IMG/VR virus record: IMGVR_UViG_3300044675_007478
Span: 1 to 28,188 of that record
Reading direction: 5' to 3' (one strand)
DNA length: 28,188 bases
Origin: a virus
The notes beneath the pieces were generated by a model. The model saw only the letters and a list, made by a program, of their open reading frames with translations. It searched no databases and was not told the DNA's origin. This document shows, piece after piece, positions 2,289-25,994 of the stretch. How positions within the stretch are numbered: position 1 is the first letter of the stretch; each line of letters begins with the position of its first letter. The position numbers and the translations under genes were made by a program.

Positions 2289-2618
2289 ATGACGGGAAAG
2301 CAACAACGATTTTTGAATCATGTGGATCGACTGTATCAAGTCGCAGCTCGCGTCGGCGATCGCGAAGCAGTCCTGCGAGTCGGCTCGACTCTGCTGGTCG
2401 TACGAGGCTCGGTGCCAGAGTTGGCGTCGGCTTGGAATCAGTTCGCTCACCATGTCGGCAACACCGACGGGACGCTACTGAACCATCTGCGGTACTTCTG
2501 GGCCGTGATGCGAAACATGCGAGGCCGAGACTCAGTCACGCTCGTCGAACTGACGGCCGACGTCTCATTCACGGTCGAAGTCGACATCGAGGCCTCAGTC
2601 GTGGACATGGTGGCCTGA
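2289..2618 (+). CDS. Hypothetical early protein
   Basis: A 109-residue protein starting MTGKQQRFLNHVDRLY, with AAAGGG 9 bases before the ATG. The frame is open further upstream, but that part overlaps the zinc-finger gene and terminator and lacks this start signal. The sequence suggests an alpha-helical N-terminal half (RLYQVAARVGDREAVLRVG) and a strand-rich, acidic C terminus (VTLVELTADVSFTVEVDIEASVVDMV). No motif is recognised. Its TGA overlaps the next ATG (TGATG), so the two are translationally coupled. Confidence 0.65.
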   Translation: MTGKQQRFLNHVDRLYQVAARVGDREAVLRVGSTLLVVRGSVPELASAWNQFAHHVGNTDGTLLNHLRYFWAVMRNMRGRDSVTLVELTADVSFTVEVDIEASVVDMVA

Positions 2619-2998
2619 TGGGAATCGCCCTAAAACCAAAGAAGATCCAACCACTGCCCAGCAAACGACAGCCCGAAAATCACACGGTCGTCGTCGTGAT
2701 CGCCAGATCGTCGGCAGACGACATGCCGTTGAGAGCTTTCGTCGGCAGCAATGCGATGGCTGACGCTCTCACCTGGGCGACAAAGCTCGCCAAGTCCAGA
2801 GAGGCGACGACTGAGACGACGCATGCACTTGCTGCGTGGATGGGCTGGTCGGCTAGCACTGGCGTTATGGATCGCTTGCCGACCGGCATCACACATTTGA
2901 CCCTGGTGACCTTCGATAGAGGCGTCCCCAATGAACAAGAGACAATCGCTGTCGCAGCACCTAAGGCCGATCGGACTGTGAGGTGCAGCGATGCCTGA
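2618..2998 (+). CDS. Hypothetical early protein
   Basis: A 126-residue protein starting MGIALKPKKIQPLP at an ATG that overlaps the upstream stop. Strand-forming VVVVIARSS, an ALTWATKLAKSREATTETTHALAAWMGW helix pair and a final strand (ITHLTLVTFD) suggest a small alpha/beta fold. I do not recognise it. The end overlaps the following ATG by eight bases, as expected in a compact phage operon. Confidence 0.6.
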   Translation: MGIALKPKKIQPLPSKRQPENHTVVVVIARSSADDMPLRAFVGSNAMADALTWATKLAKSREATTETTHALAAWMGWSASTGVMDRLPTGITHLTLVTFDRGVPNEQETIAVAAPKADRTVRCSDA

Positions 2999-3479
2999 GA
3001 CACCTGACTGCTGGGAAGTCCTAGCCGACAAGATCCAAGATTGGATCGATTCGGCCCATGTCCCACCTAAGCTGGGATCGACAATGGAAGGCTACTGCGA
3101 AGTTGCGAAGATCATCCGTCGCAACTTACCACCGTCCTACGAACGGCACGTAGCACTGCGAAAGCTACTCGATTCGCAGAACTGGGCGGGTCGGATCTTG
3201 TCATGCAATTCCGTTTCGGACCGACACAAACAGGACATGGACTCAATTGCGTTGCACATGTCGGTGCCGAGGGTGCCCAAAAATGTCATGGGGATTTTCG
3301 CACGGTACTGGAGTCTCTTCACAGAAATCACAATCGCGCACGATTTTGATGGCGCCTTTGAGCACGTTCAGGCTGCTCGATTGCTGCTGGAGTCGCGAGA
3401 CGCAGCCGTGCGAGCATGCCTCGACATGCTAGCCGAACAACAGAAACAAGAACTGAGAGCCGTTTCTCAGTCGGAGTGA
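2991..3479 (+). CDS. Acb2/Tad1-like hairpin-domain protein (copy 1)
   Basis: A 162-residue protein starting MPETPDCWEVLADKI. Residues about 33-60 read EVAKIIRRNLPPSYERHVALRK followed by LLDSQNWAGR. This fits the helical-hairpin pattern LPPS-x-ER-x2-AL-x-KL...A seen in small phage proteins of the Acb2/Tad1 hairpin family. Acb2 oligomers sequester the cyclic nucleotide signals of CBASS and Tad1 those of Thoeris. A C-terminal second half (residues about 100-155) ends in LLLESRDAAVRACLDMLAEQ, echoing the same motif, so the protein may carry one intact and one degenerate hairpin. Assignment is from motif memory, not a search. Signal binding is inferred only. The neighbour at 3512 has the same motif. 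Confidence 0.6.
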   Translation: MPETPDCWEVLADKIQDWIDSAHVPPKLGSTMEGYCEVAKIIRRNLPPSYERHVALRKLLDSQNWAGRILSCNSVSDRHKQDMDSIALHMSVPRVPKNVMGIFARYWSLFTEITIAHDFDGAFEHVQAARLLLESRDAAVRACLDMLAEQQKQELRAVSQSE

Positions 3480-3511
3480 GTGAAGTGTTTTTTGCGAAAG
3501 GGCAAAAGACT

Positions 3512-4204
3512 ATGGCGTGGGAAATGAAAAACGATTCTTCTGGCGAAAGGCTTTATTCGGAGGGAAGTGGCCGGGTCAATAGACCCAACAGATCATACGT
3601 CCGGTTCCAGTCCAACGCTAATGTGGCAACGATTTGTTTTTTCACAGACGAAATCAAGCAGTTTAGTTGGATGCAAGCTGGGATCTGCATGGACATTACT
3701 GGAAGAAACCGCAATGAAAATCAAGTTTTAATTGAACATGTTGAAAAAGGGAATCTACTGTCTGTTGATGGAAAGCGCAACGCAAAAAAATGGTTGCGAT
3801 TACACGTTTCAATTCGAGATGCATGCGTGTTGCGGGAATGGTTGAAAATAAATCGGACGGAACAGGTTCGCGTTCCATTTTCTATTGCCACTAGCGATCA
3901 AACGTTGCAAGGTCTTGTGTTGCAATTTGAAAACGATTGCAGCGGTATTCAACCTGCATACCCCGCGATTTTGAAACACAGTGACAAGCAAGCGGACATC
4001 TCACCCATGATTGATCGCATGTTGGTCTGGTTTTCGTTTGATCACTTGCCCGACCACCTGAAGCTAGTGTCACAACCTTTTTTCGTTGTGGCTCATCGGC
4101 TATGTGAGTTGTGCGAGCCTGGGCCAGAGCGGACGGTGGCACTGCGGAAGCTGCTAGAGGCAAAAGACGCAGCGGTGCGAGCTAGGTTGCACCCAGGAGG
4201 TTGA
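3512..4204 (+). CDS. Two-part protein with C-terminal Acb2/Tad1-like hairpin (copy 2)
   Basis: A 230-residue protein from the ATG at 3512, with AAAGGG 9 bases before it. Residues about 1-160 are strand-rich and unrecognised. Their DNA is clearly richer in A and T than the flanking genes. The last 65 residues read FDHLPDHLKLVSQPFFVVAHRL followed by CELCEPGPERTVALRK and LLEAKDAAVRARL. This is a strong match to the consensus tail of hairpin proteins in many phages (GPERTVALRKLLEAKDAAVRA). In the Acb2/Tad1 family such a hairpin oligomerises and binds cyclic nucleotides. A fusion of an acquired N-terminal domain with the hairpin is the simplest reading. It could instead be an oligomerisation module with no defence role. 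Confidence 0.65.
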   Translation: MAWEMKNDSSGERLYSEGSGRVNRPNRSYVRFQSNANVATICFFTDEIKQFSWMQAGICMDITGRNRNENQVLIEHVEKGNLLSVDGKRNAKKWLRLHVSIRDACVLREWLKINRTEQVRVPFSIATSDQTLQGLVLQFENDCSGIQPAYPAILKHSDKQADISPMIDRMLVWFSFDHLPDHLKLVSQPFFVVAHRLCELCEPGPERTVALRKLLEAKDAAVRARLHPGG

Positions 4205-4432
4205 GTAACACACACGAACGAGCGTAGCGAGTCGCAATGGCCTTGTCATGGCGGTGCTTTTCGCAAGCTCGAACGTTGAGGCGGCAACTGCCTAAGTTGC
4301 GAGGACCGTATACCACCAAGTATTACCCTTTTCACGTTTGAGTAGCGGGTGTGAACCCCGCACGGTCCTTTGCCAGTCGTACGAGTGACGTACGAGGCGT
4401 TTCGGTTGATGTCTTTTCCAGCGGAGGCGACA
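4205..4432 (+). ncRNA. Candidate structured RNA / long leader
   Basis: This 228-base stretch has no convincing ORF but holds consecutive perfect stems. They are GCAACT/AGTTGC (4284-4300, 5-base loop), GGACCGT (4303-4309) with ACGGTCC (4362-4368), GCGGG/CCCGC (4345-4361, 7-base loop TGTGAAC), and TCGTAC/GTACGA (4377-4395, 7-base loop). The second and third stack without a gap as a 7+5 bp helix, like the acceptor and T arms of a tRNA. A GCCA lies at 4372-4375, just beyond the helix. Only 35 bases separate acceptor and T arm, and no anticodon arm is evident, so this is not a normal tRNA. It may be a leader controlling the small secreted protein at 4433, or an independent RNA. Confidence 0.4.
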
Positions 4433-4639
4433 ATGAAGTCCCAAAGTCTGTGGTTGGTTGTTTATGCGATGTGTTTGGTTCTTCTCGGCGGTGGCTATGC
4501 GGCGATCGCAGCAGCCGAGACGACCAAGTCGGCGACACAGTGCGTGTCAGGCCAGTGCTCACGTGCGATCTCTCGCACAGTGAAAACCCCAGTTAGGCAG
4601 TATCGTCCGCTCGTCGGACGCATCGTGCCTCGTCGTTAG
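4433..4639 (+). CDS. Tiny secreted protein
   Basis: A 68-residue protein. The ATG at 4433 has GGAGG 5 bases upstream and is preferred to the in-frame ATGs at 4370 and 4412. Residues 1-29 form a textbook signal peptide: MKSQS, a hydrophobic core (LWLVVYAMCLVLLGGGYAAIA) and an AAA/E cleavage region. The mature part is about 40 residues, basic, with one Cys pair (CVSGQC) and an Arg-rich end (VGRIVPRR). No family is recognised. Cargo acting at the envelope, for example in superinfection exclusion, would fit, but nothing proves it. Structured non-coding DNA lies on both sides. Confidence 0.65.
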   Translation: MKSQSLWLVVYAMCLVLLGGGYAAIAAAETTKSATQCVSGQCSRAISRTVKTPVRQYRPLVGRIVPRR

Positions 4640-9015: not shown

Positions 9016-9309
9016 ATGCCAGCCAGCAAAAAGACCAGCCCGAAACCGAACAGCCTCCTGGAGGAAGCTCGCCAGTCGGCGACAGAGTACCAACGGAAAA
9101 AGGGCATGCAGACCTGGTTCCAGGTCCTGGAAGCCAACGAGCCCAAAAAGGCCGGAGAACTCAAGACGCTGTGCATCGATTGGCACAAAGGCGGTGAGTC
9201 GCGAGACCTGTTTCCCGGCAAAGCGGACCTCCTCCGGTTTGTGAATGCCAAGGTCTGCAAGGTGGGTCGATTCGGTTTCGACACCTGGATGAACGAGGTC
9301 ACTTCATGA
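9016..9309 (+). CDS. Hypothetical early protein
   Basis: A 97-residue protein. ATGs at 9013 and 9016 compete; the second is favoured because GGAGG lies 4 bases away rather than 1. It is basic and probably helical (MPASKKTSPKPNSLLEEARQ...EYQRKKGMQTWFQVLE), then has GGESRDLFPGKADLLRFV and ends VGRFGFDTWMNEVTS. The family is not recognised. Between the replication protein and the phosphoesterase it may serve DNA metabolism. Its end overlaps the next ATG by four bases. Confidence 0.6.
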   Translation: MPASKKTSPKPNSLLEEARQSATEYQRKKGMQTWFQVLEANEPKKAGELKTLCIDWHKGGESRDLFPGKADLLRFVNAKVCKVGRFGFDTWMNEVTS

Positions 9310-10319
9310 GCCTCAAAAAGCAGATTAAAGCATGGACCCGCAACGAGGCGACCGAGTCCCAAGAGCTCCTGACCGCCAGAGCACAGCTCAAGCAGCTTGA
9401 GGTCGCACTCAAGCGAGAGCGGTCGGCGCGAGAGCTGCTCGAGCAGACCCTCGATCGATTGCGAAGCTCGTCGGTGAAATTGAACCTGACGCGCAAGGCC
9501 AAAAGTTCCAAAGGGGGTGTCACCCTGCGAGTCATCGTCCCGGATTCGCATGGATGCTTTGTCGATCAGTCGGCAGCGTCGGCGATGCTTGCGGACATTG
9601 CGATGCTCAAGCCCTCGTCGATCATCCTCCTGGGTGATCATCTCGACTGCGGTGGCTTCCTGGCCGAGCACCACACTTGGGGCTATGTGGCCGAGACCGA
9701 CTACACTTTTGAGGACGACTGCCAGGCCACGAACCAGTTCCTCGATGCGCTGCAGTCGGCAGCACCACAAGCGACTATCGAGTACCTGGAGGGAAACCAC
9801 GAGCGACGCATCGAGAAGTGGATCGTCACTGATGCACTGCGATCCGGCAAAGGATCCCGAGGCGACGTCAAGATGCTCAACACGTTGTTCTCGACCGAGA
9901 CGGTGTTGCAGCTCGACAAGCGGAAGATCCCCATTTACAAGCAGGGCCAGTGGTACGACGGGTGCCATGTCCCCGGTACGATCCTGCGGGACAACTGCTA
10001 CTTCACCCATGGCCAATTCACATCCAAGGCCGCAGCGGCCGCTCACCTTGCCAAGTACAACTCGAACATTTGGTTCGGCCATACCCACCGCATGGACATG
10101 GCGACCAAGCGGACGGTGGCCTCGGGCCCGATCGGAGCATGGAACCCCGGTTGCTTGTGCCAGCTCCAGCCTTATTGGATGCATCAAAACTTGACCGACT
10201 GGGTCAACGGTTACGGGATCCAGTTGGTGCAGAAGGGACTTGGGCATCTCAATTTGCAGATCCCGATCATAGACGGCGTGTCATACCTATCACCGCTGAT
10301 CCGCAGGGGAGCAGCGTAA
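9306..10319 (+). CDS. Calcineurin-like metallophosphoesterase
   Basis: A 337-residue protein. Residues 15-60 form a coiled coil. The catalytic domain then shows the full metallophosphoesterase motif set: PDSHG (Asp80, His82), GDHLD (110-114), GNHE (163-166), THGQ (His235) and GHTH (258-261). These residues bind two metal ions. The family includes Mre11/SbcD nucleases and many phage phosphatases; the spacing does not say which. Its place after the replication gene favours a DNA or nucleotide substrate. The Tyr/Trp-rich end (WNPGCLCQLQPYWMHQNLTD) is typical of the phage subgroup. Bases 9346-9389, coding the coiled coil, are repeated in inverted orientation at 11154-11197. Confidence 0.85.
   Translation: MSLKKQIKAWTRNEATESQELLTARAQLKQLEVALKRERSARELLEQTLDRLRSSSVKLNLTRKAKSSKGGVTLRVIVPDSHGCFVDQSAASAMLADIAMLKPSSIILLGDHLDCGGFLAEHHTWGYVAETDYTFEDDCQATNQFLDALQSAAPQATIEYLEGNHERRIEKWIVTDALRSGKGSRGDVKMLNTLFSTETVLQLDKRKIPIYKQGQWYDGCHVPGTILRDNCYFTHGQFTSKAAAAAHLAKYNSNIWFGHTHRMDMATKRTVASGPIGAWNPGCLCQLQPYWMHQNLTDWVNGYGIQLVQKGLGHLNLQIPIIDGVSYLSPLIRRGAA
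9346..9389 (+). repeat. 44-bp long-range inverted repeat, left copy
   Basis: This segment matches the reverse complement of 11154-11197 at 41 of 44 positions. It encodes part of the coiled coil (ATESQELLTARAQL) of the metallophosphoesterase. Confidence 0.9.
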
Positions 10320-10355: not shown

Positions 10356-12101
10356 ATGAGCAGCAGTCCAAAAAGCAACTATCATGTGTTGCCACTTCCA
10401 GTGGCAATCCCGTGCGGTTGGCAACCATTGAAGATCCAGGAGATCACAGCACCAGGAGACTGGGAATGGGAGGCAGCAAGCCAACAGTGGGTGCCAGTGC
10501 TGGTTCGGAAATGGGTTTGTTATGGTGAGACACGCATCCGACGCATGAGCTTCCGGGTCGGCGAAGCGGTAAGGGTAATTCGCCAGCACCCTAAGTACCC
10601 AGAATTGCATCTTTGTCGATTAATTGTTGCGAAGATTTTTTCCGCTGATGCCCAGGGTAAGCAATTGCTTTACTGCGATCACAGCCCAAATTTTGGGCTC
10701 AGCATCGAAAGCGACTTTTTACAGCCTGCCAACGAGGACGGTAGCGGTTCGTACCGGCCACTGGAAAGGTGGAATCTGCAAGATGTCATTACCGCAGAGA
10801 TGGATCCGCAGGACAACCCCAACTTTGTCCAGAATCCCACTCCGCAGCCCGAACCAACTGTTAAGGAATCCTTGACAGTTGCCGTCGAGCCCGAACCAGT
10901 TATCAAGGATTCCTTAACAACTGAGGAAATCGCTGACACCAACAAGACCGTCAAGCAAATTGTTGCCGTGACTGACGACAGCGGAGACGAGGCCTTGTAT
11001 GTTGATGGCGTGCTTAAAGCATGGGATTCGACGATTTACGCATGCGACATTGCTGCGATCGCTGGAGATGCAGTCGTTACGGTTTCCCATACAAACGCGG
11101 GGCGAACGCTTTCGGACTGGCCAAAAAAGCTAAGCGATGTCTTTGCATCCAACGAGCTGTACTCTGGCGGTGAGGAGCTCCTGGGACTCGGTCGCCTTTG
11201 TCCGGAAATCCTGGACAGTTCGGACTCTTCGGAAACTCCGAACAGTTCGCCCGAAATGTGCGGAGCGTCCGAGCCGATCACGATCGGATACACGGTACCC
11301 AATGCCTACGATACAGACGCGGAGCCCATTACGGAGCCGATCCAACGCAAGCGAGTCCTGTACATTGCTGGTCCGATGCGGGGAATCGCTTGGTTCAACT
11401 ACCCCATGTTTGATCGCGTCGCCAAAGAGCTGCGTGAGGCCGGCAACGAAGTCATCAGCCCAGCGGACGAAGATCGGCAGCACGACGGTTTCGACCCGTT
11501 TGCCAATCCATCGCATGCAAATCCTGACGCCTGCACCTTTCCCAAAACCATGGACTTCGCAAAGACCGTGCGACGCTGCTTGGATGCAGTCCTGCGGTGC
11601 GACGAGATTGTCCTGCTTCCAGGCTGGGAGAACAGCAATGGAGCTGTTGCCGAGCTAACCCTGGCCATGTGGCTCGGCAAGCGGGTGCGAGACGTTCGAA
11701 TCGACGACCAAGATCGGATCACCTATCTTGGCCAGTGGATGGGGCTCGCAGGCCTGGCCATGCAGCTAAGCGACTATCACCTAGAGGTCGAAGTCCCGGT
11801 CGTTGTCGACGACGAAGACGACGACGAAGACGACGACGAGGACATCCTGGCCGAAGCGTCCCGGATCACGCGGGGCAGTCGCCAATCGCAATACGGGCCA
11901 CCGGATCAAGACTTCCGCCGGACCGCTGGCATGTGGTCGGCGTTGTTCCTTTCCAAGCTCAAAGACGGCGTGACATTCGAGTCCCGAGACGTCGCACTGG
12001 CGATGATCTTGCTGAAGACCTCCCGCGAGACGCACCAGCGCAAGCGGGACAACTGGGTCGACATCGCTGGGTACGCAAGCTGCGGGAGTCGGTGCAACTG
12101 A
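10356..12101 (+). CDS. DUF4406-DUF6378 fusion with a novel N-terminal half
   Basis: A 581-residue protein with AAGGA 8 bases before its ATG. Residues 1-150 form an unrecognised, Trp-rich domain. A linker (about 160-330) holds two 14-residue repeats, a Ser-rich stretch and the inverted 44-bp segment. Residues 333-447 are a DUF4406 / nucleoside 2-deoxyribosyltransferase-like domain (RVLYIAGPMRGIAWFNYPMF ... LPGWENSNGAVAELTLAM). Residues 484-496 are almost all Asp/Glu. Residues 497-577 are a DUF6378 domain (ILAEASRITRGSRQSQYGPP ... WVDIAGYASC). Both known domains occur as separate phage proteins linked to nucleotide metabolism. The fusion suggests coupled processing of nucleotides or of a base-modified substrate. 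Confidence 0.75.
   Translation: MSSSPKSNYHVLPLPVAIPCGWQPLKIQEITAPGDWEWEAASQQWVPVLVRKWVCYGETRIRRMSFRVGEAVRVIRQHPKYPELHLCRLIVAKIFSADAQGKQLLYCDHSPNFGLSIESDFLQPANEDGSGSYRPLERWNLQDVITAEMDPQDNPNFVQNPTPQPEPTVKESLTVAVEPEPVIKDSLTTEEIADTNKTVKQIVAVTDDSGDEALYVDGVLKAWDSTIYACDIAAIAGDAVVTVSHTNAGRTLSDWPKKLSDVFASNELYSGGEELLGLGRLCPEILDSSDSSETPNSSPEMCGASEPITIGYTVPNAYDTDAEPITEPIQRKRVLYIAGPMRGIAWFNYPMFDRVAKELREAGNEVISPADEDRQHDGFDPFANPSHANPDACTFPKTMDFAKTVRRCLDAVLRCDEIVLLPGWENSNGAVAELTLAMWLGKRVRDVRIDDQDRITYLGQWMGLAGLAMQLSDYHLEVEVPVVVDDEDDDEDDDEDILAEASRITRGSRQSQYGPPDQDFRRTAGMWSALFLSKLKDGVTFESRDVALAMILLKTSRETHQRKRDNWVDIAGYASCGSRCN
10848..10931 (+). repeat. 42-bp tandem repeat containing two 25-bp quasi-palindromes
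   Basis: Units start at 10848 and 10890 and encode PEPTVKESLTVAVE and PEPVIKDSLTTEEI. Each contains a 25-base quasi-palindrome (10856-10880 and 10898-10922) centred on AAGGAATCCTT or AAGGATTCCTT. Because of the palindromes, both strands encode VKESL/VKDSL-like peptides here. Confidence 0.8.
11154..11197 (-). repeat. 44-bp long-range inverted repeat, right copy
   Basis: This is the partner of 9346-9389, in opposite orientation, inside the linker of the DUF4406-DUF6378 protein. Read in the sense frame it encodes ELYSGGEELLGLGRL. Confidence 0.9.
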
Positions 12102-24216: not shown

Positions 24217-25389
24217 CTATCGAGATCCTCCGAGCAAAAACAGGTAGTAGTAGGGAGCAGCACCACCGGTGCCGGGTGCGCCAGTTCGAAGATTGACGGG
24301 ACTTGCGACCAGGACGTATTGACCCGTCCCAGCCTCTAGGACTCGACTGCGCAGGAATCCTGCATCGAGACCACTGGCCAAATAAGCGGCGGTGTCCGCA
24401 GAGATCCGGCGGCTAGCGAGGAACCCAGCGGCATTTCCGTCGAGTGTGTAGGCCGCAGCTCCTGCGTCGAGCAGTCTGCCGAGTAGCGTTGCTGCATCGG
24501 TGCCAGAGTAGGCGTAGGACCCCTGGTCCGCATTGAGCAACCGCGATGTGAGCAGCGGAGTCGTTTGGCCCGACAGCAAAAGGCTACCGGTGTCCGCTGG
24601 TAACACTCGGCCGTACAGCAGCGGGATCGGTTGGCCGGAGAGAACGTAAGAACCAGATTCTGCGAGGATCGAAAAAGCAGCGGCTAATTGTGCGTAATAA
24701 GATCGTCGTCTCGGTGGTTGCATGAGCATGCCACCGCCCCGACCTTGCTCGTAGAGAAAACGGACTTCGTTGGGGGTTGAAGCTGCGTTAAACATGCAAA
24801 AATCATCTGCTAAGCCATTCAGATAACTCGCTGTAGCTATCCGCCCACCGATCGCAAAATCGAACATTGTCGAAAAGTTCGCTGCACTTGTTCCAGTCGT
24901 GGTCCCTTGCAAGGAGCCGTCTAAATACGCTGCAATTGTGTTGCTGCCATTGAATGTTAAAGCGATGTGCTGCCATCGGTCCAGAGACAAGCCTGTTAAA
25001 GTTCGATCAAAGCCCCAAACACCGATCGTCGCTGTCGTCGCGGTAAAATTGAAACAGTAGAAACCATTTTCGCAAAAGTAAGCAGCACCACCAGACGCGC
25101 GACGGTAAACCCAAATTGACCAAGTCCCTGCAAAGCCAGTCGGCCCGACTCGCAGTGAAGCTGGCATACGCACAAAATTGTTCGTTCCGTTGAAATTTAT
25201 TGCCAGCTTGTCAGGACTTGCAACATACGCATTATTGCTGTTGTTCGCAAAGTTGGTCAGCACGCCGTGATTCCCGAAACCACTTGTGTCCGGCAGTTGC
25301 AACCCGGTCGCACCAGAAAAAGACGGACACCACCGACCGACCATCCGGCTTTGCAGACTTTCCCATTCCGGCCCGTAGTACGCCAACAT
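24217..25389 (-). CDS. LamG-domain virion protein with a six-unit 22-residue repeat
   Basis: A 390-residue protein whose ATG overlaps the upstream stop (TAATG). Residues about 25-215 form a concanavalin A-like/LamG domain: DTSGFGNHG, FNGTNNFVRMP, AGTWSIWVY, DRWQHIALTFNGSNTIAAYL DG and YLNGLADDFCMFNAA, as in carbohydrate-binding tail proteins. Residues 241-368 are six tandem 22-residue units of the type (L/I)-x-A-x2-G-S-Y-x-L-S-G-x4-LL-x-x-R-(L/V). The end is Gly/Ala/Tyr-rich. It is probably a tail or baseplate protein that binds surface glycans. The number of repeats may vary between relatives. Confidence 0.75.
   Translation of the reverse strand: MLAYYGPEWESLQSRMVGRWCPSFSGATGLQLPDTSGFGNHGVLTNFANNSNNAYVASPDKLAINFNGTNNFVRMPASLRVGPTGFAGTWSIWVYRRASGGAAYFCENGFYCFNFTATTATIGVWGFDRTLTGLSLDRWQHIALTFNGSNTIAAYLDGSLQGTTTGTSAANFSTMFDFAIGGRIATASYLNGLADDFCMFNAASTPNEVRFLYEQGRGGGMLMQPPRRRSYYAQLAAAFSILAESGSYVLSGQPIPLLYGRVLPADTGSLLLSGQTTPLLTSRLLNADQGSYAYSGTDAATLLGRLLDAGAAAYTLDGNAAGFLASRRISADTAAYLASGLDAGFLRSRVLEAGTGQYVLVASPVNLRTGAPGTGGAAPYYYLFLLGGSR
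24286..24669 (-). repeat. Six tandem 66-bp units (22-residue repeat)
   Basis: Unit boundaries fall at residues 241, 263, 285, 307, 329 and 351 of the LamG protein. The DNA copies have diverged, and the conservation is mostly at protein level (A/D-x-GSY-x-LSG and LL-x-x-R). Confidence 0.85.
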
Positions 25390-25994
25390 TAGGTGATGGT
25401 CTCTCCCTTGTCGACGATGGCCAGCAACTGCACGACGTAGGGGATGGACGAGTAGTTGACGAAGCGACACTCGTAAATGTCACCGCCAGGGATCCACACT
25501 CGGCGGACATCGGCGAGGTTGGTCACCGAGTTGGTATTGAGATTAAGAACGCGGTGATTTCGCTCGAGCGTCCAGGAGGTTGTCGCACCCGAAGCGATGC
25601 GGTTCCACTGGATCAGCGTTCCGACAGAGTTAAAAATGCAGACGGTGTCGCCGATAGCAAAGTTAGTCGAGGCGATGGCGATCGTATTCTGCGAGAGTGA
25701 CACATCAGCAGTGAGTGCCCCGAGCAAAGCGGCAGTCGTTGGGCCTTGGCCGACCATGTCGAAAATGGTCGTTGGAACGATGTCCGTGTTATTGTCCGTC
25801 GGGCGGATCGCGAAGTATCCGGCGCGGGTCGGGGTGCCAGCGCTTCCACGGCCCATAAAACCGACGACCCAAGCCCCTGGCACGTTTCGCAAATCGAGCG
25901 TCGTCGAGGCGACGACAATGTTTCCCGTTGCCACGATTTGAGGCGTGATGAGCGTGGTGTAGTCGGGCGTGGTTTTCGTTACCAGGGATGGCAT
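25389..25994 (-). CDS. Phage structural protein
   Basis: A 201-residue protein starting MPSLVTKTTPDYTTLITPQI. It is beta-rich and Thr/Asn/Val-rich, lacks cysteine-rich or enzymatic motifs, and ends VVQLLAIVDKGETIT. The segment VGFMGRGSAGTPTRAGYFAI may be a repeat-like strand pair. It sits in the tail gene cluster before the LamG protein; a tail-fibre or baseplate component is likely but not proven. Confidence 0.6.
   Translation of the reverse strand: MPSLVTKTTPDYTTLITPQIVATGNIVVASTTLDLRNVPGAWVVGFMGRGSAGTPTRAGYFAIRPTDNNTDIVPTTIFDMVGQGPTTAALLGALTADVSLSQNTIAIASTNFAIGDTVCIFNSVGTLIQWNRIASGATTSWTLERNHRVLNLNTNSVTNLADVRRVWIPGGDIYECRFVNYSSIPYVVQLLAIVDKGETIT

Follow-up and report, generated by a model that had tools for sequence, protein, structure and literature searches.

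The stretch of DNA analysed here (the window) is the 28,188-base IMG/VR virus contig IMGVR_UViG_3300044675_007478, which carries a gpA-type terminase (the nearest annotated terminases are ~25% identical to it), a putative phage metallopeptidase and, on the minus strand, a block of probable structural genes. Far from this block, on the plus strand, lie two adjacent genes: gene 1 (ORF1, 2991-3479), which encodes 162 residues arranged as two tandem helix-hairpin units, and gene 2 (ORF2, 3512-4204), which encodes 230 residues ending in a third hairpin. The second frame was originally listed as 3416-4204, of which 3416-3479 overlaps the 3' end of ORF1 in another frame; the first ATG past this overlap, at 3512, is likely to be the correct start (3416 is not believable as one), and reduces gene 2 from 262 to 230 residues. 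Upstream, the 3' end of a gene at 2618-2998 (plus strand), whose DNA is 88-96% identical in most relatives, overlaps the start of gene 1 by 8 bases (ATGCCTGA), while ORF2 begins ~33 bases past the end of ORF1. This overlap and the short gap suggest a single transcript. Since the region is present at 100% identity in two further IMG/VR contigs, it is not an assembly accident of a single contig.

An earlier note had pointed to a motif in each gene that resembles the hairpin of small phage proteins such as the CBASS inhibitor Acb2 and the Thoeris inhibitor Tad1. Both motifs are real: LPPSYERHVALRKLL occurs in ORF1 (~3126-3170) and GPERTVALRKLLEAKDAAVR in the second ORF (~4121-4180), and when the whole window was scanned in six frames with a hairpin HMM these two frames were the sole matches (2.6e-26 and 5.1e-16, the next best being 1.4), so that they are more than chance matches. 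On the evidence of profile matches both genes belong to the family PHROG_1761/5120, whose function is unassigned in PHROG. This family is large, with 312 annotated phage records recovered by tblastn and at least 574 and at least 587 confirmed relatives in two scans of IMG/VR. Many of the members sampled are stand-alone proteins of ~60-75 residues, showing the pattern F-x-Y-x-H-L-P...Q-x-V-S-[KR]-P-F-x2-L-A...L-P-x-N-P-E-R-T-x-A-L-R-K-L-L-E-A-K-D-A-A-V-R-A.

Gene 1 differs from the rest of the family in fusing two units in one chain. ORF1 matches phrog_1761 with E = 8.3e-9 (residues 14-68) and phrog_5120 with E = 9.1e-7, and its first hairpin unit (residues 9-68; 3015-3194, plus strand) aligns by hhalign to the PHROG_1761 profile with a probability of 98.3% (P = 1.6e-14). 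The suspicion that this gene might hold a second, degenerate hairpin was well founded: the C-terminal half aligns to the hairpin profile at 94.1% (P = 1.2e-7; column shuffles ≤3.0%), AlphaFold (AF2) predicts a second helix-hairpin unit there, and the unit so defined (residues 77-161; 3219-3473, plus strand) can also be followed in the alignment of the relatives, among which its end, VQAA-LLLESRDAAVRACLDMLAEQQKQ, is nearly invariant. Compared as profiles, the two halves resemble each other at 65%. The AF2 model contains six helices (residues 9-20, 26-45, 50-66, 77-91, 97-115 and 123-161), that is, a short helix plus a hairpin, twice; mean pLDDT is 80 in the best of five models and ~48-56 in the other four. 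The F-x-Y start of the family is absent from ORF1, which has W18, in a part of the alignment without statistical support. Homologues in viral contigs are 44-48% identical to ORF1, and no gene 1-like protein was found outside a set of eight related viral contigs, which includes two that are identical to the window. The single GTDB match to the ORF1 alignment (L229, from Marinicella) was rejected as a false hit: it lies in a type II secretion pseudopilin-like cluster and is confined to the surroundings of LADKIIDWID.

The hairpin of gene 2 (residues 164-226; 4001-4189, plus strand) matches phrog_1761 with E = 1.5e-20 and phrog_5120 with E = 1.2e-16, and is 43-68% identical to stand-alone members (68% to a 75-residue stand-alone hairpin at the same locus in the related contig L005). 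AF2 models it as a short helix and two long ones (residues 164-174, 181-200 and 205-226) with pLDDT mostly 95-98. At the place of the PHROG_1761 tyrosine ORF2 has F (WFSFDHLP), again where the alignment has no statistical support. As the earlier note had described, the hairpin is carried behind a larger uncharacterised region, an addition with respect to the stand-alone members of the family. This orphan region of ~160 residues (~residues 1-160; 3512-3991, plus strand) is AT-rich, with a GC content of 41-45% versus 53-60% around it; it has no relatives among phages or viral contigs except in the two identical contigs, and its AF2 model is beta-rich (strands 30-34, 38-45, 59-61, 71-82 and 92-100) and largely of low pLDDT. 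Two family members with other partners were also observed. In Vibrio phage 1.185.O (L012, AUR93218.1) the hairpin is preceded by another N-terminal domain (GFLVEYVDGG...GYISWSPKDVFERAY), and this further type of fusion partner may be the N-terminal part of PHROG_1761 itself; in Ochrobactrum phage OH (L017, QIG66118.1), in a protein annotated as an anti-TRAP domain protein, it follows a CxxC...CxxC zinc-finger-like N-terminus.

The locus is variable among its relatives. In most of them the flanking genes are ~88-100% identical in DNA to those of the window, and gene 1, which keeps its place and its ends, is ~35-76% identical over 3003-3362 and 85-97% identical at its 3' end. Simple positive selection was considered as an explanation and discarded: dN/dS is ~0.4-0.55, and smaller than 1 in every pair, while dS itself, at 0.9-1.4 relative to the window allele, exceeds the 0.09-0.18 of the gene just upstream about tenfold. 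This combination points to swapped old alleles, and judging from these comparisons gene 1 is a real, constrained gene with exchanged alleles, whose conserved ends are the likely crossover points. Gene 2 takes the form of the bare 75-residue hairpin in L005, with the 60-base bin 4143-4202 being 100% identical to the window, and is absent in five relatives (L006-L010). In one of these (L008:3818-4324) its spot is occupied by an unrelated ORF that appears by eye to be a phage DNA adenine methyltransferase-like protein; thus, the spot hosts alternative genes. A second mosaic patch occurs downstream of gene 2, at ~4380-4620, where the window is near-identical to L007-L009 and 38-55% identical to L005 and L006. 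Among the loci examined, tandem PHROG_1761-type hairpin genes are found only in this clade; a second case of neighbouring hairpin genes, of the Pfam PF24729 type described below, is provided by two ORFs lying close together in a viral contig (L186:140-466 and 944-1183). Turnover of this kind is usual in phage counter-defence regions, of which it is no proof, and the behaviour of genes 1 and 2 fits such a locus.

The kinship with Acb2 and Tad1 proposed in the earlier note holds at the level of a superfamily, and fails at that of the curated family. The curated cut-off of PF24729 (Acb2_Tad1_hairpin) is 27 bits; T4 Acb2 and its counterpart from phage p26 score 71.4 and 66.5 bits, respectively, the PHROG_1761 member of Vibrio phage martha 12B12 scores 14 bits, and neither ORF1, nor ORF2, nor three relatives of ORF1 give any match to this profile. 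Comparisons between profiles were made with 90 PHROG_1761-type hairpins and 79 PF24729-type phage hairpins; the latter were collected by means of a generic, hand-written consensus query (94 bits against PF24729), and the members of this set are real sequences. With hhalign the two profiles align with a probability of 90.6 (P = 1.3e-6, score 33.3), as compared with 86.3 (score 33.0) for the accepted pair of PF24729-type hairpins and T4 Acb2. The aligned part consists of the end of helix 1 and helix 2, and is gap-free (P-x3-E-[RK]-[TS]-[VL]-A-L-x-K-L-x-E-A); an F-x-Y-H-P-like start is common to both families, and the HMM of each picks up some members of the other.

The two families are bridged by the first unit of ORF1. 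It aligns to the PF24729-type profile at 92.7% (P = 4.2e-7; shuffles ≤31.6%), and has ER-x-VALRKLL as in PHROG_1761; in helix 2 it also carries Trp-Ala where PF24729 has its MWAN motif, a feature that sets it apart from PHROG_1761/5120; on these sequence features it is an intermediate between the two types of hairpin. Relatives of ORF1 and some stand-alone members match the HMMs of both families, and the relative in L009 matches phrog_1454, the PHROG to which phage proteins of the PF24729 type are assigned, with E = 1.4e-5. It could be argued that amphipathic helices have simply converged by chance and that the similarity has no evolutionary meaning, as the segments are short and none exceeds the Pfam cut-off. 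This explanation is very improbable, because all controls gave far lower values: 600 shuffled profiles (300 by column, 300 keeping hydrophobicity) reached at most 33% probability and a score of 22.1, reversed profiles at most 0.2%, and natural decoys, which were families assembled blindly from the genes of the retrieved loci, at best 1.0% with the PHROG_1761 profile and no more than 7.8% with the PF24729-type one (PHROG_1761 and T4 Acb2 families aside). The intermediates that match both families also stand against it. In the direct comparison PHROG_1761 shows no similarity to T4 Acb2 (0.7% by hhalign), and the link is thus a transitive one, through the PF24729-type proteins. Queries of the PDB (ORF1, ORF2 and two hairpin profiles) yielded noise, with no solved Acb2 or Tad1 chain rising above it (Acb2 homologue 43, 9ptq, appeared at E = 1.4 with one hairpin profile and was not retrieved with a larger one); PADLOC and NCBIfam searches returned nothing, and nothing was found in the literature on PF24729, DUF7681 or the motif text. 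Overall, PHROG_1761 is likely to belong to the Acb2/Tad1 hairpin superfamily.

The predicted folds can be compared with those of the known proteins. The Acb2 protomer is formed by a short helix and two long antiparallel helices, and its hexamer binds 3'3'-cGAMP between protomers, while Tad1 consists of an N-terminal sheet followed by two C-terminal helices (PMC10419184; PMC12043709). Each unit of ORF1 and the hairpin of ORF2 are predicted with the published layout of Acb2 (T4 Vs.4, PDB 7uq2; Pseudomonas aeruginosa phage p26, PDB 8h2j), which is also a small phage protein; the layout is a simple one, the window proteins have no direct sequence or profile similarity to Acb2, and they are represented here by predicted single chains. 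The predicted arrangement of gene 2, with its beta-rich N-terminal part and C-terminal two-helix hairpin, is that of Tad1 (PDB 7uav), although the N-terminal model is of low confidence and the region has no similarity to Tad1. When the two models were run through Foldseek against the PDB, nothing reached E ≤0.001; what came back were unspecific helical or beta folds, Acb2 not among them. For so small a fold this outcome speaks neither way, as short helical hairpins make poor queries, and the N-terminal model of ORF2 is weak.

Nucleotide-signal sequestration, that is, a sponge function, is our leading reading for genes 1 and 2, with a probability of roughly 0.45 in our estimation. According to this hypothesis the two genes would be a cassette with which an uncultured tailed phage counters host defence. 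The hairpin units would each assemble into a compact Acb2-like oligomer, whose subunit interfaces would bind and hold small cyclic nucleotides or signals of the cyclic ADP-ribose type, so that CBASS-like or Thoeris-like effectors of the host are not triggered. The fused units of gene 1 would supply two protomers per chain, one of them diverged (for example, three chains could form a pseudo-hexamer), and gene 2 would combine one hairpin with an additional beta-rich domain, in a loose parallel to the beta-sheet and hairpin of Tad1. A broader proposal is more tentative, and we consider it rather doubtful: that PHROG_1761/5120 as a whole is a large, so far unnoticed branch of the Acb2/Tad1-type sponges whose pocket has been re-modelled, that gene 1 is a two-protomer sponge whose units could bind different signals, and that the locus exchanges sponge alleles between phages.

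Observations on the ligand pocket bear on a sponge function in both directions. The Y8A variant of T4 Acb2 has been reported to be a dinucleotide-binding mutant (PMC12657218), and in our reading Y8 corresponds by position to the conserved Y of F-x-Y. At the position like that of the pocket tyrosine PHROG_1761 has Y or a different aromatic residue in almost every sequence (Y in 68 and F in 12 of 90), in a part of the alignment that has no statistical support. PF24729 (approximately phrog_1454) shares with the family of the window proteins the gap-free helix 2 signature E-[RK]-[TS]-x-A-L-x-K-L-x-E-A, the similar F-x-Y-H-P start and the helical layout. In contrast, between the Tyr and the conserved Ala of helix 1 PHROG_1761 is four residues shorter, the Arg conserved in PF24729 is missing from it at the corresponding position, and RKLLEAKDAAVRA stands in place of TKLEEAVMWANAAIAR. 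With a shorter stretch and no such Arg, the pocket need not be kept in PHROG_1761, and the aligned segment could serve assembly alone. The hairpin might then be a general oligomerisation module, in genes of an early or variable phage region that act otherwise (for example, by directly blocking a host defence protein, or as small regulators), and the link to Acb2 and Tad1 would be real only at the level of the assembly fold. We regard this as a serious possibility, if one falling well short of even odds. It accounts for the differing residues on the pocket side, for the conservation of what we take to be the helix pair that also builds the Acb2 and Tad1 oligomers, and for the variety of N-terminal fusions (zinc-finger-like in phage OH, a separate domain in phage 1.185, the orphan region here); it is at odds with the fact that the superfamily members with tested function, Acb2 and Tad1, are sponges, and with the invariant polar residues H11, S20, E39, R45, E49 and K51 and the nearly invariant D52 of PHROG_1761, which go beyond obvious packing needs.

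The genomic placement of relatives in other phages bears on a further alternative, that the hairpin proteins play a minor part in the structure or assembly of the virion. Relatives in PHROG_1761 do adjoin portal, capsid, head-tail or tail genes in several phages (Vibrio martha 12B12, Rhodococcus Perlina, Acinetobacter Ab105-2, Gordonia Puppers, Morrissey and Pimento), but others are found among nucleotide-metabolism or early genes (Ruegeria RpAliso, Gordonia Evaa, Mycobacterium ThulaThula), and PF24729-type hairpins occupy the same kinds of places: beside the portal gene in Gordonia Gray, beside thymidylate synthase in Mycobacterium Anthony and Gordonia MinecraftSteve, and at the tail-lysis junction in Jace. 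In this small sample both families thus share positions on the portal side, near the tail-lysis junction and in nucleotide-metabolism clusters, which argues against a fixed part of the virion and suggests that the two types of hairpin are interchangeable in role. That genes 1 and 2 are so distant from the structural block and differ between close relatives also speaks against a virion factor, which we consider improbable.

The fused double hairpin and the hairpin with an orphan partner come from a family that neither Pfam nor the papers searched recognise as Acb2/Tad1-like. If its hairpins are sponges, counter-defence genes are now listed as hypothetical in hundreds of sequenced phages (of Vibrio, Erwinia, Acinetobacter, Gordonia and others) and in very many viral contigs, and the double hairpin would illustrate how the binding sites of sponges become asymmetric. 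Should the hairpins have another function, a large orphan family still gains its first structural and evolutionary place through the Acb2/Tad1 fold.

Three other genes of the window were recorded in passing. The product of 9306-10319 (plus strand) resembles calcineurin-like phosphoesterases (Metallophos_2, E = 4e-5, under the cut-off) and could also act on signal nucleotides. The frame at 10356-12101 (plus strand) encodes a 581-residue protein with DUF4406 (E = 1.6e-16) and DUF6378 (E = 4.7e-22) in a single chain, a possible nucleotide-handling enzyme; its DUF4406 part presumably resembles a domain of the nucleoside deoxyribosyltransferase type. On the minus strand, 24217-25470 contains a concanavalin A-like lectin domain (Laminin_G_3, E = 8e-16), and its product is probably a receptor-binding or tail protein.
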